Origin: a virus
Direction: 5' to 3' (one strand)
Length of the DNA stretch: 20,938 nt
IMG/VR virus record: IMGVR_UViG_3300044638_004272
Coordinates: 1-20,938 of that record
Below, piece by piece: positions 3,700 through 14,855 of the stretch (positions are counted from its first letter, which is position 1; the number at the start of each line of letters is the position of its first letter). The notes under the pieces were generated by a model. That model did not search any database. It saw only the letters and a program-made list of their open reading frames with translations, and was not told where the DNA came from. Both the position numbers and the translations under genes were made by a program.

Positions 3700-4824
3700 T
3701 CATAGTGGTACGTTAACGCGTGTGCCGAAAGGAACAGCTGGATGCGACCGGCCGATGTCCGCCCATATCACCGGTATCTCAGGCTCTTTGCATTCTGCAA
3801 GGTTGCCTTCCATGTCAGTGAAAAAGATAATGCCGCAGTACCGCTCGTCTGAGGCTTCTATATGGTCGAACACAGGTTTGAAGCGCGTGCCACCGCCGCC
3901 TTTAGGCTTAAGTTCTAACGGCTCATCCCGCTCAAAACGCTGAACTGAAGTAACCGAGTAGTCACAATATATTACCTCAACGAACGCTGGTTGCAAGTCT
4001 TCTATGATAGTACGCAGCTCTGCGCCGATCTGCGCTGCTTCCGCGTCCCCCATTGACCCTGACGTGTCGAAGCCGATGGCCAGCCCACCGAGCGCCTGCC
4101 CATGCAGCGATGGCATATATAATCCCTGCCACAAAAAGCGCTTGTTGGGGCGCCGGTAGGAATAATCACTCTTACTCGATTCAGTCATCATGGCCTGCAC
4201 CTCATCTTGCCAGCGCACGTTGCTCTGTCCAAGGTCTTGGATGATGCGGTCGATCAGTGCGGAACCATGCCCGCACTCCTTGGCCATCTTGGCTGCAGTG
4301 GCGATAGTCACTTCCATGTCCGCACGTGTCGCTTCGTCTTGTGCATCCTCGATGTCGCCGTTACCGTCGAACCCACCGGCGTTGGGCTTGCCCTCGCCTC
4401 CTGCTCCACCCTGCGGTGGCGGGGGGTTTTTCTTGAGTCGTGCGTACACTTCCTCAGAACTCATACCCTCGGTCACCCACGGCACATGCACACCCCCGGG
4501 CGGTAGCTTGTACCCACGCGAGAGTATGTAGGCGTTGATGATCGCGTCGTTGGCGTAATTCCACAGGCCCATATCACGGTCTTCTCTGCGCCACATGTGC
4601 ATCAGCACAACGTGCAGTGCTTCGTGCAGGCTCAGGCCGAACAGCTCCTCATCACTCCACTGCGCGCACCATGTCGGGTTGTACCGCACCCACGTGCCGT
4701 TGGTGCCGGCGGTCGGTACTTTCTCAGACAGCTCACGCTTAATGCGCGTCATCACCGCAGCGATAAACGGCTCACGCAAACCCATCCTGCTGTATGTCAG
4801 ATCAATTCGTTGTTCTATGTTCAT
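3700..4824 (-). CDS. VWA-like protein with N-terminal metallopeptidase-like domain
   Basis: 374 residues. The N-terminal domain carries HEALH at 67-71 (the HExxH zinc-binding pattern of gluzincin and minigluzincin folds) with NDAIIN at 92-97 as a likely further ligand region. A Pro/Gly-rich linker (~133-155) follows. The C-terminal VWA-like domain has the metal-dependent adhesion site DTSGSM at 253-258, GGGTRF at ~311-315 and FFTDMEG at ~335-340. This two-domain layout is known from bacteria and phages beside MoxR ATPases, and the MoxR gene lies about 0.9 kb upstream in the same operon. GGAG precedes the ATG by 6 bases. Likely role: substrate-binding partner of the ATPase; peptidase activity is unproven. 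Confidence 0.9.
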   Translation of the reverse strand: MNIEQRIDLTYSRMGLREPFIAAVMTRIKRELSEKVPTAGTNGTWVRYNPTWCAQWSDEELFGLSLHEALHVVLMHMWRREDRDMGLWNYANDAIINAYILSRGYKLPPGGVHVPWVTEGMSSEEVYARLKKNPPPPQGGAGGEGKPNAGGFDGNGDIEDAQDEATRADMEVTIATAAKMAKECGHGSALIDRIIQDLGQSNVRWQDEVQAMMTESSKSDYSYRRPNKRFLWQGLYMPSLHGQALGGLAIGFDTSGSMGDAEAAQIGAELRTIIEDLQPAFVEVIYCDYSVTSVQRFERDEPLELKPKGGGGTRFKPVFDHIEASDERYCGIIFFTDMEGNLAECKEPEIPVIWADIGRSHPAVPFGTRVNVPL

Positions 4825-5384: not shown

Positions 5385-5692
5385 ACTTTCTCCAACGCAT
5401 ATAGCGATTCCAAAAAGAGTTTTGCCTCACCAAGGTCACTGAAGTGCCGTGGGTGTATGTCGAACGTATCACGTGACGCAACCCAGCCCAGCGAGGCATC
5501 GACCATCGCGTCACCCCCAAGCGTACTACGGACAACTCCGAACAACGTGTCGATGTAGTACTCTATGCTGTTCGCGTTGTACCTATGGAGTGTACGCACG
5601 CTTAACGAAAACACCCCCGGTCTTGGGTTTGCCCACATCAGCTCGGTCTTGTGTGCTGGAGGATGTTTCACTCTCGTGTGTTTCACTCTCAT
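5381..5692 (-). CDS. Phage hypothetical protein after the MoxR ATPase
   Basis: 103 residues from the ATG (MRVKHTRVKHPPAHK) that overlaps the ATPase stop as ATGA. The first codons contain a near-perfect short direct repeat (GAGAGTGAAACA twice), encoding the doubled VKH. The remainder (SVRTLHRYNANSIEYYIDTL ... FLESLYALEKV) is of unknown function and resembles the next gene at its end. A longer in-frame start exists inside the ATPase gene but is not needed. Confidence 0.65.
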   Translation of the reverse strand: MRVKHTRVKHPPAHKTELMWANPRPGVFSLSVRTLHRYNANSIEYYIDTLFGVVRSTLGGDAMVDASLGWVASRDTFDIHPRHFSDLGEAKLFLESLYALEKV

Positions 5693-6702
5693 GATCGACC
5701 AAACGCCGCTTGGTTCTCGACGCCCCACTTGGTGTATGCAGCACTGTTGGCCAGTGACTTGTCACGCTTGTACGCCAGCTTGACGACCAGATTCTGAATG
5801 TCTCCGGGCATCTTGGACAGGAACTTGTATGCCTTGTCGAAGTTGGTGTAGTCCAAGCGGCTGGCCAGACCCATCGCGATGCAGTAGCGCACGTTGAGTT
5901 CCTTGGGTAGCTGCACATCCACGCCGTCGAGTATGTCATCGATACGTGGCATGGTCTCGTACACGCGCAGATGTGTCTCGAACACCATCGCAGCCTCTTC
6001 ACCAACGTCACCCTTAATCAGCTCAACACGATCCTGCATGGGTATGTCGAGGTCGAGCGTCGCGTCAACACCGAACCACGCGCGTGGCGATGGGAACGGC
6101 TGCATCTCTTGCGTGGAGACGAACTTGTGTAGCATGTCCGGGCGGTCGTACAGGAATGAGGTGATCTCAGCTTTCATGCCACGCGGTACTGCGTGCATCA
6201 CGAAATCATCCAGCGTAGTGTTGACCTCTACGTCGCACATACGGTTCTGAAGTGGGCCAGCAAGGTTAAACGTCACACCCTTATCACTCTTGCGGTTACC
6301 TGCGGCGACGATCATCCACTCAGGGGGTATGCCGAAGTCTTGCGGTGTCAGCGTGATCTGAAACGCGATCGCCTGCATCGCCTGCGGAGCCGAGGTAATC
6401 TCATCAAGGAACAGGATGCCCGCGCCGTCACGGGGGAAGAACTCGGGGCGCAGCCATCGCGTTGTCATTGTCTCCATGTCAGGCATCAACGCGCCCTGTA
6501 CATCTGTTGGCTCACGGCTGGCAAGGCGCAGGTCAATAACGCCGCGCCAGTTCTCTACGTGCTGCGCCAGAAGCTCGCTGGTCTGAAACACAACATCGGA
6601 CTTGCCAATGCCCGACGGCCCACGCAGGAACACAGGACGCTTGCGGGTGCGCTCATTCAGGTAGCGCTTAACGAGGATCGGGGTTACGTGTGATATACGC
6701 AT
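5689..6702 (-). CDS. MoxR-type AAA+ ATPase
   Basis: 337 residues. Walker A is GPSGIGKS at 28-35; Walker B is ILFLDEI at ~95-101; the sensor-1 region is IVAAGNRKSD at ~131-140, followed by GPLQNRM with an arginine typical of this clade. This order and size are those of MoxR AAA+ proteins, which act as hexameric chaperone-like remodelling ATPases paired with VWA proteins. The VWA partner lies downstream in the same operon. SD GGAGATAAGAT precedes the ATG, and a 16-base palindrome lies about 58 bases upstream. The target is unknown; related MoxR/VWA pairs occur in other phages, for example N4-like phages (general knowledge). Confidence 0.9.
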   Translation of the reverse strand: MRISHVTPILVKRYLNERTRKRPVFLRGPSGIGKSDVVFQTSELLAQHVENWRGVIDLRLASREPTDVQGALMPDMETMTTRWLRPEFFPRDGAGILFLDEITSAPQAMQAIAFQITLTPQDFGIPPEWMIVAAGNRKSDKGVTFNLAGPLQNRMCDVEVNTTLDDFVMHAVPRGMKAEITSFLYDRPDMLHKFVSTQEMQPFPSPRAWFGVDATLDLDIPMQDRVELIKGDVGEEAAMVFETHLRVYETMPRIDDILDGVDVQLPKELNVRYCIAMGLASRLDYTNFDKAYKFLSKMPGDIQNLVVKLAYKRDKSLANSAAYTKWGVENQAAFGRS

Positions 6703-7013: not shown

Positions 7014-7892
7014 TCAGTCCTCCAGCATCGCGTCGATGGCGTTCAGCAGGTGCTTGGTGTTCTCGTTAAGCTCCTCACGCTTGCCTGAGTCATCGCGCAG
7101 TACCTGCGCCGCAGGCATCATCTCACCGATACGCTTGGCCAGATTAACCGTACGCTCCGGCATAATGTCTGCCAGCTCCATCAGCATGTCGATCTCAGCG
7201 TGGACGTTCTCGATAACAGAGTCACGAAAGATCGGCGGTTTAACAATCTCGACACCGCGCTTGTCGACTGACACACGGTCTTGCTTGCCCGTAACTTCCG
7301 CGAGGTGCGCCACCACTTTACGCAGTCTGGTCAGCGGGTCACGGTACACTGACTCCATGCTGTCTTTGACCTCAGATTCTACCTGCACACGCAGCAGATC
7401 AAGTTCCTCTGTCTGAAGCTGCACACGGAAGTCACCGTAGTCTGTGACTGGGCGATAGCTCACACGCATCTTGAAACCAGCCTTCAGCTCATCTAGGTCA
7501 GGGTACACACTCGCGTCGAACATATCACCTTGCGCGTCCTTGGCGCGGGTCATCACGTTGTTCCAGTTGTTAAGGAACGCTGTGACACACTGGCTGAACT
7601 CCAGCTCGTACTTGGCCATGCGGTCAGCAAACGTCATGAAACGCTTGTTCGGCAGCAGGAACTCACCGCGTGACCACACGTACGTGGTCGACTCGATGTA
7701 CGCACGTGCGCTGGACTCAACAGTCAGGATCGGCTGGATCAGCTGCTTGGGGTACAAGTCCTTGCGGTACTGCCCAGCGTTCTGTGCGTCGTTCGCAGCT
7801 TCTGCGTCGAGCGTTGCTTTCAGGTCTTTCATCGTCATCTGCGGCTTGCGTACAGTCAACGACACCAACATTGCGTGGTCTTTAATACTCAT
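7014..7892 (-). CDS. Helical phage protein next to MoxR/VWA, possibly DUF3150-like
   Basis: 292 residues from the ATG giving MSIKDHAMLVSLTV, which has AAGGAG 7 bases upstream; an in-frame ATG seven codons earlier lies inside the palindrome and is unlikely. After an N-terminal strand and basic segment (SLTVRKPQMTMKDLKATLD) most of the protein is charged helix, with long runs at ~120-190 (ELDLLRVQVESEVKDSMESV) and ~220-290. In many phages and bacteria a protein of this size and helical layout accompanies MoxR and VWA genes (DUF3150 type); assignment here rests on context and pattern. It is the first gene after the promoter at 7982-8010. Confidence 0.7.
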   Translation of the reverse strand: MSIKDHAMLVSLTVRKPQMTMKDLKATLDAEAANDAQNAGQYRKDLYPKQLIQPILTVESSARAYIESTTYVWSRGEFLLPNKRFMTFADRMAKYELEFSQCVTAFLNNWNNVMTRAKDAQGDMFDASVYPDLDELKAGFKMRVSYRPVTDYGDFRVQLQTEELDLLRVQVESEVKDSMESVYRDPLTRLRKVVAHLAEVTGKQDRVSVDKRGVEIVKPPIFRDSVIENVHAEIDMLMELADIMPERTVNLAKRIGEMMPAAQVLRDDSGKREELNENTKHLLNAIDAMLED

Positions 7893-7904
7893 TGCATTGC
7901 TCCT

Positions 7905-7920
7905 TAATCCCATGGGATTA
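7905..7920. repeat. Dispersed palindrome copy 3, TAATCCCATGGGATTA
   Basis: Perfect copy immediately followed, on the minus strand, by AGGAG, the SD of the 292-residue gene. It lies in the leader about 60 bases after the promoter at 7982-8010. Confidence 0.9.
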
Positions 7921-10036: not shown

Positions 10037-10296
10037 CAGTACACCACCATGTACTTGGACAGTACGTCAACGTCTTCGAGCGCCACCAACTGGCAGGAAT
10101 GCACCGCGTAGTGGAATGCACCGCCGCAGTCGTATACTCCTCGATTAGACCACTCGAGGTCTTCTTCATCATCGTGGCACTCACCCAGCAGGGCGTTGCG
10201 CTTGGCTTCTTCCTCGTTGTCAGCGATGACCAGTGATGTTGTGTCTTTGGCGTACTCGCCCGCTAAAATTTCTATAACAACGTAATAGGTGTTCAT
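10036..10296 (-). CDS. Small phage protein, DpnD/PcfM-like N-terminus (weak)
   Basis: 86 residues from the ATG giving MNTYYVVIEILAGE, which has AAGGAG 8 bases upstream and overlaps the previous stop as ATGA; an upstream in-frame ATG is rejected. The strand followed by SLVIADNEEEAKRNAL resembles the strand-helix layout of DpnD/PcfM-type small proteins, and the next gene upstream starts similarly. The rest has a Cys/His-containing DCGGAFHYAVHSCQ segment. Function unknown. Confidence 0.7.
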   Translation of the reverse strand: MNTYYVVIEILAGEYAKDTTSLVIADNEEEAKRNALLGECHDDEEDLEWSNRGVYDCGGAFHYAVHSCQLVALEDVDVLSKYMVVY

Positions 10297-12875: not shown

Positions 12876-12904
12876 ATTATAGCACAGGTAACCCTGTGGG
12901 TCAA
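12876..12904 (-). promoter_or_regulatory. Sigma70 promoter with inverted-repeat operator in the spacer
   Basis: Minus strand: -35 TTGACC (12899-12904), spacer of 17 bases, -10 TATAAT (12876-12881). The spacer holds CACAGG-GTTA-CCTGTG (12883-12898). The layout is identical to the 8.0-kb promoter, including a TAGTG/TAGTC-type start and a downstream GTGGGAGA. It drives the operon starting with the zinc-finger gene. Confidence 0.87.
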
Positions 12905-12997: not shown

Positions 12998-13255
12998 CTA
13001 CGAATCGAACAGGGAGTCGAGTTCTTCAGCCAGATCACGGGCGGGTTTCTGCACCCGAGGAACGGGTGTTTGTTGTATCGGGTTGGCTGTGGCTTGGGTG
13101 TTTGGTTGCGCAAGCAGTTGCAGTTTCGATGGGTCTCGCAGATATGCACGCAGTATCGCACGCATAAAAACGGTCAACGGCAGTCCACTAGCAGCCGCAG
13201 CGCGTTGCAACTCAAGCATGGTTTCTGGGGTATCACGGTAGGTTAGTGCCTTCAC
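12998..13255 (-). CDS. Ribbon-helix-helix DNA-binding protein
   Basis: 85 residues, GTG start (MKALTYRDTPETMLELQRAA) with GAGGAG 9 bases upstream. The first ~42 residues show the ribbon strand KALTYRDT, helix A (PETMLELQRAAAAS), the turn GLPLT and helix B (VFMRAILRAYLRD), the Arc/CopG/MetJ layout. A Pro/Gln-rich linker and an acidic tail (AEELDSLFDS) follow. RHH proteins bind tandem short repeats as dimers and often control their own gene or plasmid partition. Directly upstream lies an array of such repeats at 13301-13489, which makes it a good candidate binding partner. Confidence 0.82.
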   Translation of the reverse strand: MKALTYRDTPETMLELQRAAAASGLPLTVFMRAILRAYLRDPSKLQLLAQPNTQATANPIQQTPVPRVQKPARDLAEELDSLFDS

Positions 13256-13300
13256 TTTAGATTCTCCTCAACGTAGGTTTTTAAGGGTTGATACCGCTTA

Positions 13301-13489
13301 GACTCTATTAGATGTTTAAGTGAGTCTATTAGATACCAACGAGATTCTCACGTCAAGAGGCTATTTGATGTCTTTTAGATACCTAATAAAGTCTAATAGA
13401 GGCTAATAGAATCTAATAGAGTCTTGTTGGTGTCTTAGTCGAGAGGCTTATTGATATCTCGGAGACTCTACTAGATATCTTTTAGACTC
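13301..13489. repeat. Helically phased repeat array upstream of the RHH gene
   Basis: CTAATARA occurs at 13383-13390, 13393-13400, 13403-13410 and 13413-13420, exactly 10 bases apart. The reverse complement TCTATTAG lies at 13304-13311 and 13325-13332. Looser copies follow, such as GACTCTACTAGATATC (13464-13479) and TTTTAGACTC (13480-13489). Tandem short sites on one DNA face suit an RHH protein. Confidence 0.85.
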
Positions 13490-13736
13490 TCGGTTTTTAG
13501 GCGTTTTTAGTTGGATTCAGCAAAATAGTCGGTTTTTACTAAAAAATTAGTCGGCTGAAGTTCATTTTTAGCGGTAGGTTTGGCGTGCAAGTGTTTGATA
13601 TCCCTTGTTTTAGTAAAATAGTAACTTTTTTGGGGCTAGAGGAGAGTTTGGAGGTGGGGGTCGGGGCGTTGGGCGGCAGGCAAATCGATTTTACGGTATG
13701 GACTAGAAAATAAAGTTACTAAAATAATTGGGTACT

Positions 13737-13782
13737 TTATTATTATTATTATTCTATTTATTCTAATATATATATATATATA
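13737..13782. repeat. Simple TTA and TA tracts
   Basis: (TTA)n at 13737-13753 and (AT)n at 13766-13782, with little G or C in between. This is an easily melted stretch in a genome that is otherwise of balanced or high GC. Confidence 0.9.
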
Positions 13783-13836
13783 ACAAGCAGTTAGCCGTGT
13801 GCCCCAGTGCCAAAACGCCAAAATTTAAACTGCGGG

Positions 13837-14046
13837 TAACATATTCTCTGACTAATTCTCATAAGTCATTGATTCTCTCGAATTAGTTTTTACTAATTTT
13901 TTTTGAAAGGCGCCAAGACGCACACACTAATTGAAATTCGACTATACAAAAATTTGTTGCGCTCGTAAGTCATTGATTCTTCCATCAAACTAGGGGTGTA
14001 AAAATGAAAACGCCAATCATCTGACGGTTAACATATTCCCTGACTA
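13837..14046. repeat. Duplicated motif set TAACATATTC-CTGACTA and TAAGTCATTGATTCT
   Basis: TAACATATTCYCTGACTA occurs at 13837-13854 and 14029-14046; TAAGTCATTGATTCT occurs at 13862-13876 and 13966-13980; AAAACGCCAA occurs near 13812 and 14008. The copies flank a segment between them in rearranged order. Confidence 0.85.
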
Positions 14047-14059
14047 GTGACAATTTGAC

Positions 14060-14075
14060 TAATCCCATGGGATTA
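14060..14075. repeat. Dispersed palindrome copy 8, TAATCCCATGGGATTA
   Basis: Perfect copy in non-coding DNA, not attached to a gene start; TTGAC directly precedes it on the plus strand. Confidence 0.9.
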
Positions 14076-14131
14076 ACAGAGCCGATAAATATGAGTTATT
14101 TTGGCTGGGCTGGTCGCATACTGGGCGGTCT

Positions 14132-14147
14132 TAATCCCATGGGATTA
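14132..14147. repeat. Dispersed palindrome copy 9, with GC-rich flanks
   Basis: Perfect copy flanked by GGCGG on one side and CCGCC on the other, giving a longer, slightly offset hairpin. Confidence 0.9.
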
Positions 14148-14165
14148 GCCGCCACGCTGGCCGCA

Positions 14166-14218
14166 TGATAGTAGTGATAGTACTGCCGCAGGCAGGGCTT
14201 GTGATAGTAGTGATAGTA
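14166..14218. repeat. TGATAGTAGTGATAGTA direct repeat, two copies
   Basis: 17-base exact copies at 14166-14182 and 14202-14218, each built from a 9-base unit TGATAGTAG. Read in one frame the unit is a run of stop codons. Further copies lie at 15003-15019 and, partially, at 15689-15698. Confidence 0.9.
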
Positions 14219-14235
14219 TTTGGCGGACAGCCGAA

Positions 14236-14276: not shown

Positions 14277-14855
14277 TCACTTGATCTGCTGTAACTTGAG
14301 TCCCATCTCTTTCAGTGCGGCCGTGATTTTCAGCGCCTTGTCAGCGTCCTTGAAATACACTGGCAAGTTATGCAAGAACGCAGCAAAGGCTAGATCATCA
14401 TTGTTTGACGTGTCAGTCACCTGACTCGGGATTGTCGCCGGTTGCGCTGGCTTGCGTCCGCCACCTGCTGCGCGTGCCATCCCGTTTTCTTCACGCACTT
14501 GTTTGGCAGCGTCCTTCATGGCGTGCTTCGCCATATTGATCGCCTTGTCCGCCGTGGTGTGCGTTTCCACTTCCTGACCGTCTTTTTTCTCTGTGAATGA
14601 AATGGCGGTAGTCGGAGCCAGTGCCAGTGTCAACGCGTCCTTGAAGATAGCCTTCACATTGTGACCAGCGTCCGATAACTCGGGCGCATACTCTGCCATA
14701 ATCGCTGCCAGCACTTCCGGCAGCTTGCCTTCCGGCGGATTCTGTGCGGCCAGCTTGGCAGCAGACACGCAGTGCTTGTACATGTTAGTCGCTGCGTCCG
14801 CAGCTTTTTTGATGGACAAAACGACTTCGGTAGAACGTACGATTGAAATTGTCAT
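14277..14855 (-). CDS. Phage hypothetical protein, helical, alone between promoter and terminator
   Basis: 192 residues (MTISIVRSTEVVLSIKKAAD ... GLKLQQIK). An N-terminal helix with many Ala and Lys is followed by TLALAPTTAISFTEKKDGQE and an acidic-basic helix (AINMAKHAMKDAAKQVREEN), then a flexible RAAGGGRKPAQPATIPS linker and a C-terminal helix pair. Own promoter (14935-14962), structured leader and terminator show a separately controlled unit. No family recognised; it could be an abundant early DNA- or host-interacting protein. Confidence 0.8.
   Translation of the reverse strand: MTISIVRSTEVVLSIKKAADAATNMYKHCVSAAKLAAQNPPEGKLPEVLAAIMAEYAPELSDAGHNVKAIFKDALTLALAPTTAISFTEKKDGQEVETHTTADKAINMAKHAMKDAAKQVREENGMARAAGGGRKPAQPATIPSQVTDTSNNDDLAFAAFLHNLPVYFKDADKALKITAALKEMGLKLQQIK

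Follow-up and report, generated by a model that had tools for sequence, protein, structure and literature searches.

Does a phased array of short repeats directly upstream of a gene for a ribbon-helix-helix (RHH) protein serve a virus as a partition site, as part of a replication origin, or as an operator of the adjacent gene? An earlier note had raised these options for the window, by which we mean the whole stretch of DNA analysed here, the 20,938-base virus record IMGVR_UViG_3300044638_004272 (positions 1 to 20,938). The repeats it described were all recovered: four copies of CTAATARA at exact 10-base steps on the plus strand (13383, 13393, 13403 and 13413), inverted copies at 13304 and 13325, and variant copies across approximately 190 bases, the first units lying 39–49 bases from the start codon of the gene (Table 1). 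The six copies of CTAATARA compare with 0.49 expected in the window, and none of 100 shuffles reached six. A consensus scan yielded a better repeat unit, the near-palindrome TCTAWTAGA, whose symmetry means that direct and inverted copies are almost identical sites. Four copies in the array are exact, eight have at most one mismatch (13304, 13325, 13371, 13392, 13402, 13412, 13467 and 13478; shuffled-array mean 0.44, maximum 3) and ten have at most two (shuffled mean 2.3, maximum 6). The other 20.7 kb of the window contain just two copies with at most one mismatch.

Table 1. Positions of the repeat array, the RHH-like gene, the promoters and the parts of the origin-like module in the window.
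Feature	Position	Strand	Description and basis
Strong early leftward promoter	12876..12904	-	TTGACC-17-TATAAT, 11/12; downstream of RHH gene
RHH-like gene	12998..13255	-	85 aa, GTG start, GGAG upstream; Pfam RHH_1, fold matches, synteny
Array block A	13294..13333	.	Units 13294 (degenerate), 13304, 13315 (degenerate), 13325; TCTAWTAGA scan
Candidate RHH promoter	13328..13356	-	TTGACG-17-TCTAAT, 10/12 consensus positions
Array block B	13360..13420	.	Units 13360, 13371, 13382, 13392, 13402, 13412; contains the four CTAATARA
Array block C	13446..13486	.	Units 13446, 13457 (degenerate), 13467, 13478; TCTAWTAGA scan
Module, left iterons	13503..13578	+	TTAGTTGG, ATAGTCGG, TTAGTCGG, TTAGCGG at 18-22 base steps; sequence and motif list
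Module, conserved core	13586..13665	+	GCAAGT..TTGAT..TTTAG..ATAG..TTTT..AGAG..GGGG; alignment of 13 loci
Module, AT-rich stretch	13708..13790	.	(TTA)n and TATATATA; candidate unwinding element; sequence
Module, right part	13846..14219	.	TAAGTCATTGATTC at 13862 and 13966, ACTAA repeats, TAATCCCATGGGATTA at 14060 and 14132, TGATAGTAGTGATAGTA x2

Inside its three blocks, units of the array are mostly spaced 10 or 11 bases apart. Autocorrelation of positions 13286-13495 was highest at lag 21 (z about 5; 0 of 1000 shuffles), with further peaks at lags 10 and 11, then 32 and 42, and a depletion at lag 22; array segments scored highest among all 210-base segments of the window. Thus, the array is phased at about 10.5 bases, a helical phasing pointing to a row of protein-binding sites on one DNA face and not to slippage. 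GANTC (CcrM-type) sites are also clustered in the array (7 in 190 bases, Poisson p = 2 × 10−6), in no relative is there a similar cluster, and we discarded it as a by-product of the repeat's AGANTCT junctions.

The naming of the adjacent gene as RHH could be upheld only with qualification. Pfam RHH_1 was the best match of the 85-aa protein but, at 16.1 bits, stayed below the 20.5 cut-off (E = 8 × 10−4 when the window alone was searched). A structure model made from four sequences had confident helices at residues 10–23 and 27–40 and was poor in the remainder (mean pLDDT 64, no strand assigned); most of its top fold matches were to CopG, Arc, NikA and RHH antitoxins, every E being above 0.7 and none significant singly. 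In a profile search of 18 records, RHH_1 matched only the window, G009 and G010, once in each and at a constant position to the left of the origin-like module described below. The profile built from these three sequences led to a fourth gene, in L157, and this syntenic relative exceeds the Pfam NikA-like (RHH) cut-off (28 versus 27). Syntenic RHH genes are therefore known in four phages, and most relatives have none. Sequence alone leaves doubt, but fold prediction and synteny support the view that the protein is RHH-like. As a query it found no match in IMG/VR or in annotated phages, and a search of solved structures by sequence gave no meaningful match. The neighbouring leftward gene encodes a DksA-like zinc finger and has its own strong promoter; used as a query, it retrieved a single distant contig, L218, with a similar module and no RHH match. 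No toxin family was recognised among the genes scanned, which took in only part of the small ORFs.

A candidate promoter of the RHH-like gene overlaps the array: unit 13325 contains its −10 box, and its −35 box lies between blocks A and B. A stricter promoter scan does not list it. At the level of consensus, then, an array that begins 39 bases upstream of the gene overlaps the gene's own candidate promoter. Of the options originally raised, the autoregulatory operator is the best supported, by phased sites over a plausible RHH promoter and by the different promoter-region repeats of the L157 RHH gene. We consider it probable that the array is a cooperative autoregulatory operator array of the adjacent RHH protein. 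RHH dimers would occupy the near-palindromic TCTAWTAGA sites one helical turn apart on a single DNA face, and we infer that they assemble cooperatively across as much as some 190 bases. Dimers on block A would cover the −10 box of the candidate promoter and thereby repress the RHH gene. A length of 190 bases is long for simple autoregulation, which counts against the operator reading.

The array adjoins a noncoding module of approximately 0.7 kb (13503 to about 14220). It has counterparts at about 30 related loci, of which two or more belong to a single contig. Besides iterons and a core (across loci GCAAGTCGTTGATTT, then TTTAG..ATTAG..TTTT..AGAGAG..GGGG), it comprises an AT-rich stretch, inverted repeats, a 16-base palindrome and two TGATAGTAG motifs. 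The TTAG-type iterons are almost missing from the remainder of each locus and their sequence varies by phage: TTTAGATTGG in G008, TGAGTAGAT in G002, CTTTAGCAG in G007 and G010, AAAATAGAC in G015, and AATTAGT in the window, where five copies lie in the region and none outside. GC content is 36% over 13500-14099 versus 47–57% in the kilobases either side, and the module contains the lowest-GC 200 bases of the record in G001, G002 and G006 and the second lowest in G009. The gene run that begins at the module in G001 includes a family A DNA polymerase gene along with genes for a PD-(D/E)XK nuclease and an SNF2-type helicase. GC skew was inconsistent in four large relatives and does not settle the matter. 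With region-confined repeats and an AT-rich stretch, as in an iteron-type origin, and with its conservation in relatives, the module has the appearance of an origin of replication in a clade of uncultured phages of about 60 kb. Two module versions had no meaningful match in an annotated phage collection, a literature text search found none of four module sequence strings, and the gene right of the module (14277-14855) retrieved nothing from IMG/VR.

Other repeats in and around the module are recorded here as observations. The palindrome TAATCCCATGGGATTA occurs in nine exact copies in the window (4848, 6760, 7905, 9506, 12079, 12457, 12791, 14060 and 14132; 0.04 expected), with zero copies having one to three mismatches, and in several leftward genes its ATG lies at or near the start codon. 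It is present in 99 IMG/VR stretches, often in multiple copies, and relatives have variants of the form AATCCC[AG][CT]GGGATT; it resembles a regulator or promoter site specific to the clade. The two copies of TGATAGTAGTGATAGTA at 14166-14219 adjoin the end of the leftward gene 14277-14855, and nearly all relatives have a pair of TGA[TC]AGTAG motifs at this position. At the right end of the module, several relatives carry tandem 7-base GTCGTTC or GTCGTTT repeats or ACGTC/ATACGTC repeats (L193 at about 10051-10092, L189 at about 2961-2988, and counterparts in L187 and L188), which are absent from the window.

The strong early promoter of the window is the counterpart of the relatives' early promoter, which is of the same type and lies beside the module. 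In relatives without an RHH gene in which both elements were located, this promoter is 67–372 bases from the module core; the distance is 684 bases in the window, 644 in G010 and 1609 in G009, with the RHH gene in between, and in L157 the promoter lies directly beyond the end of the RHH gene. The slot between promoter and module holds an RHH gene in four phages and an HNH endonuclease gene in one (G006; HNH_3, 27.2 bits versus a cut-off of 24.8). A gene in L144 resembles the latter by appearance. Given this pattern of slot and promoter distance, the RHH gene and its upstream repeats look like an accessory cassette of gene plus operator between the early leftward promoter and the conserved module. 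Because the cassette sits between the two, the row of RHH dimers may also influence either the adjoining origin or the early promoter. Among the clade's early leftward promoters, that of the window being one, many near-perfect sigma-70 examples have 17-base spacers containing dyads such as CACAGGGTTACCTGTG or CCACACCACATAGTGG, possible repressor sites.

Among these relatives, the CTAATAGA array was found only in the window. Relatives without the RHH gene lack it, yet keep the module and its iterons, and the window carries both the array and ordinary module iterons; by this comparison, array and module are separate elements. The RHH gene of L157 has upstream repeats of its own. L157 has GCTTTACA three times in its 14-kb locus, all no more than 100 bases upstream of that RHH gene and two of them 11 bases apart, as well as TTAGGC at offsets 24, 46 and 70 upstream of that gene; G010 has the L157 motifs as single copies (at 68 and 85); and the left region of G009 is repeat-rich, with four copies of GCTTCGG and no one-turn phasing. 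This pattern suits operators that follow their RHH protein, with each array type seen in one phage; the missing phasing in G009 and the single copies in G010 count against the operator reading. No second phage with the array was found in which joint evolution of array and RHH protein could be followed; close relatives (terminase 99–100% identical) stop short of it, L005 beginning at 13627. The exact decamer-pair pattern occurred in 45 IMG/VR contigs; all longer arrays were in unrelated phages, and a home-made three-sequence profile found no RHH match there. In the unrelated phages L016, L020 and L029, perfect (TCTAATAGAA)n arrays vary in copy number between otherwise similar contigs.

The right part of the window contains a terminase gene (PHROG) and a portal gene (Pfam SU10_portal). 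The portal shares 36% identity with its counterpart in Rhizobium phage RHph_TM3_14A, and phages of Roseobacter, Pelagibacter, Vibrio and Aeromonas gave additional matches. A terminase search of bacterial and archaeal genomes found no relative and hence no clue to the host. Judged by related records of about 59–61 kb, the window probably covers about one third of a genome close to 60 kb long. Rfam and tRNA scans gave nothing, nor did gene 7014-7913 as an IMG/VR query. In the leftward cluster, adjacent genes for a VWA/metallopeptidase-like (DUF2201) protein and an AAA ATPase (3700-4824 and 5689-6702) resemble a MoxR-VWA pair.

These comparisons bear on three other readings of the array. It might represent the left iterons of the origin, bound by the phage replication initiator and not by the RHH protein, given that it adjoins the origin-like module, that module repeats also lie left of the core in G002 and G008, and that TATTAGA and the module iterons have TTAG in common. 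We think this unlikely, because the window has module iterons of its own and the iterons in the left regions of G002 and G008 show no one-turn phasing. Moreover, the left repeats of G002, G007, G008 and G010 return inverted on the module's right side, but only two copies of TCTAWTAGA with no more than one mismatch lie outside the array in the window. The suggestion of an origin region thus fits the neighbourhood and probably not the array itself, since the module exists without array or RHH gene and with its own iterons.

A centromere-like partition site, served by the RHH protein and a ParA-type ATPase, had also been proposed, and RHH centromere-binding proteins do use tandem repeats (PMC9499535). 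However, the ParA-type family PF13614 had no match in 18 related records, several of them 59–61 kb, although control genomes matched, and the window itself covers only that third of a genome; most relatives lack the RHH gene, and portal, terminase and the phages' own DNA polymerase hint at a phage without a plasmid stage. The partition reading is accordingly highly improbable. Finally, a functionless minisatellite made by replication slippage would agree with four copies exactly 10 bases apart, and the variable-number arrays of unrelated phages have no RHH match nearby. Slippage alone keeps one exact period, however, so the mixed 10/11 phasing speaks against it: diverged units in blocks A and C hold 10–11 base steps, and lag 21 exceeds lags 10 and 11 with lag 22 depleted. 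It would also make the array's place over the promoter of a DNA-binding-protein gene a coincidence, and is in our estimate quite improbable.

Returning to the operator array, its possible reach beyond the RHH promoter can be framed as a broader proposal, which we advance tentatively and rate as rather unlikely. If the module is indeed the origin, the cassette would act as a governor of phage replication: the RHH row would spread from the operator into the adjoining iterons, which share a TTAG core, and would restrain initiation or couple it to early transcription, as PrpA does on a plasmid (see below). Phages of the clade would then exchange RHH-operator cassettes at the border of an origin that diverges fast but keeps its architecture. 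Alone, the array is of modest interest, and the part worth following is the origin-like module with its cassette slot. The array led to a conserved, undescribed noncoding module in which phage-specific iterons are held in a constant frame, beside a slot for small regulatory or nuclease genes. If the module is an origin, its natural variants could be used to study the joint divergence of initiator and iteron specificity.

Arc and CopG operators bind two dimers, with neighbours about one helical turn apart. The protein described here is predicted to share their two-helix RHH core (CopG TM-score 0.73, target-normalised, 40 residues) but is too distant in sequence to claim membership, and its array offers as many as about 15 units in 190 bases instead of two dimers per operator. 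Omega/ParG-type systems likewise combine an RHH protein with direct and inverted tandem repeats; the parS of pSM19035, which needs at least four contiguous heptads (PMC9499535), differs in its 7-base units, compared with 10–11 bases here, and in the ParA partner that is missing from the 18 related records. The small viral RHH proteins SvtR (SIRV1), AvtR (AFV6) and F55 (SSV1) repress their own genes, F55 acting on tandem ATAGATAG repeats and AvtR protecting about 100 bases between promoters (PMC5569661). Repression of the RHH protein's own promoter is what we propose here; the likeness is one of description, those proteins work at archaeal promoters in archaeal hosts, and no origin-like module is described beside them. 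PrpA, an RHH antitoxin of plasmid pMBL6842, acts over the −35 and −10 boxes of its own promoter to repress it and, in addition, binds or competes for origin iterons, lowering copy number (PMC7848731). It belongs to a plasmid toxin-antitoxin pair, and no toxin was recognised among the genes scanned in the window; it nevertheless operates as proposed for an RHH row that restrains an origin. Thus, the viral proteins and PrpA make the operator proposal ordinary in kind, the array alone probably being an ordinary viral repressor operator, and PrpA makes control of the adjoining origin possible.
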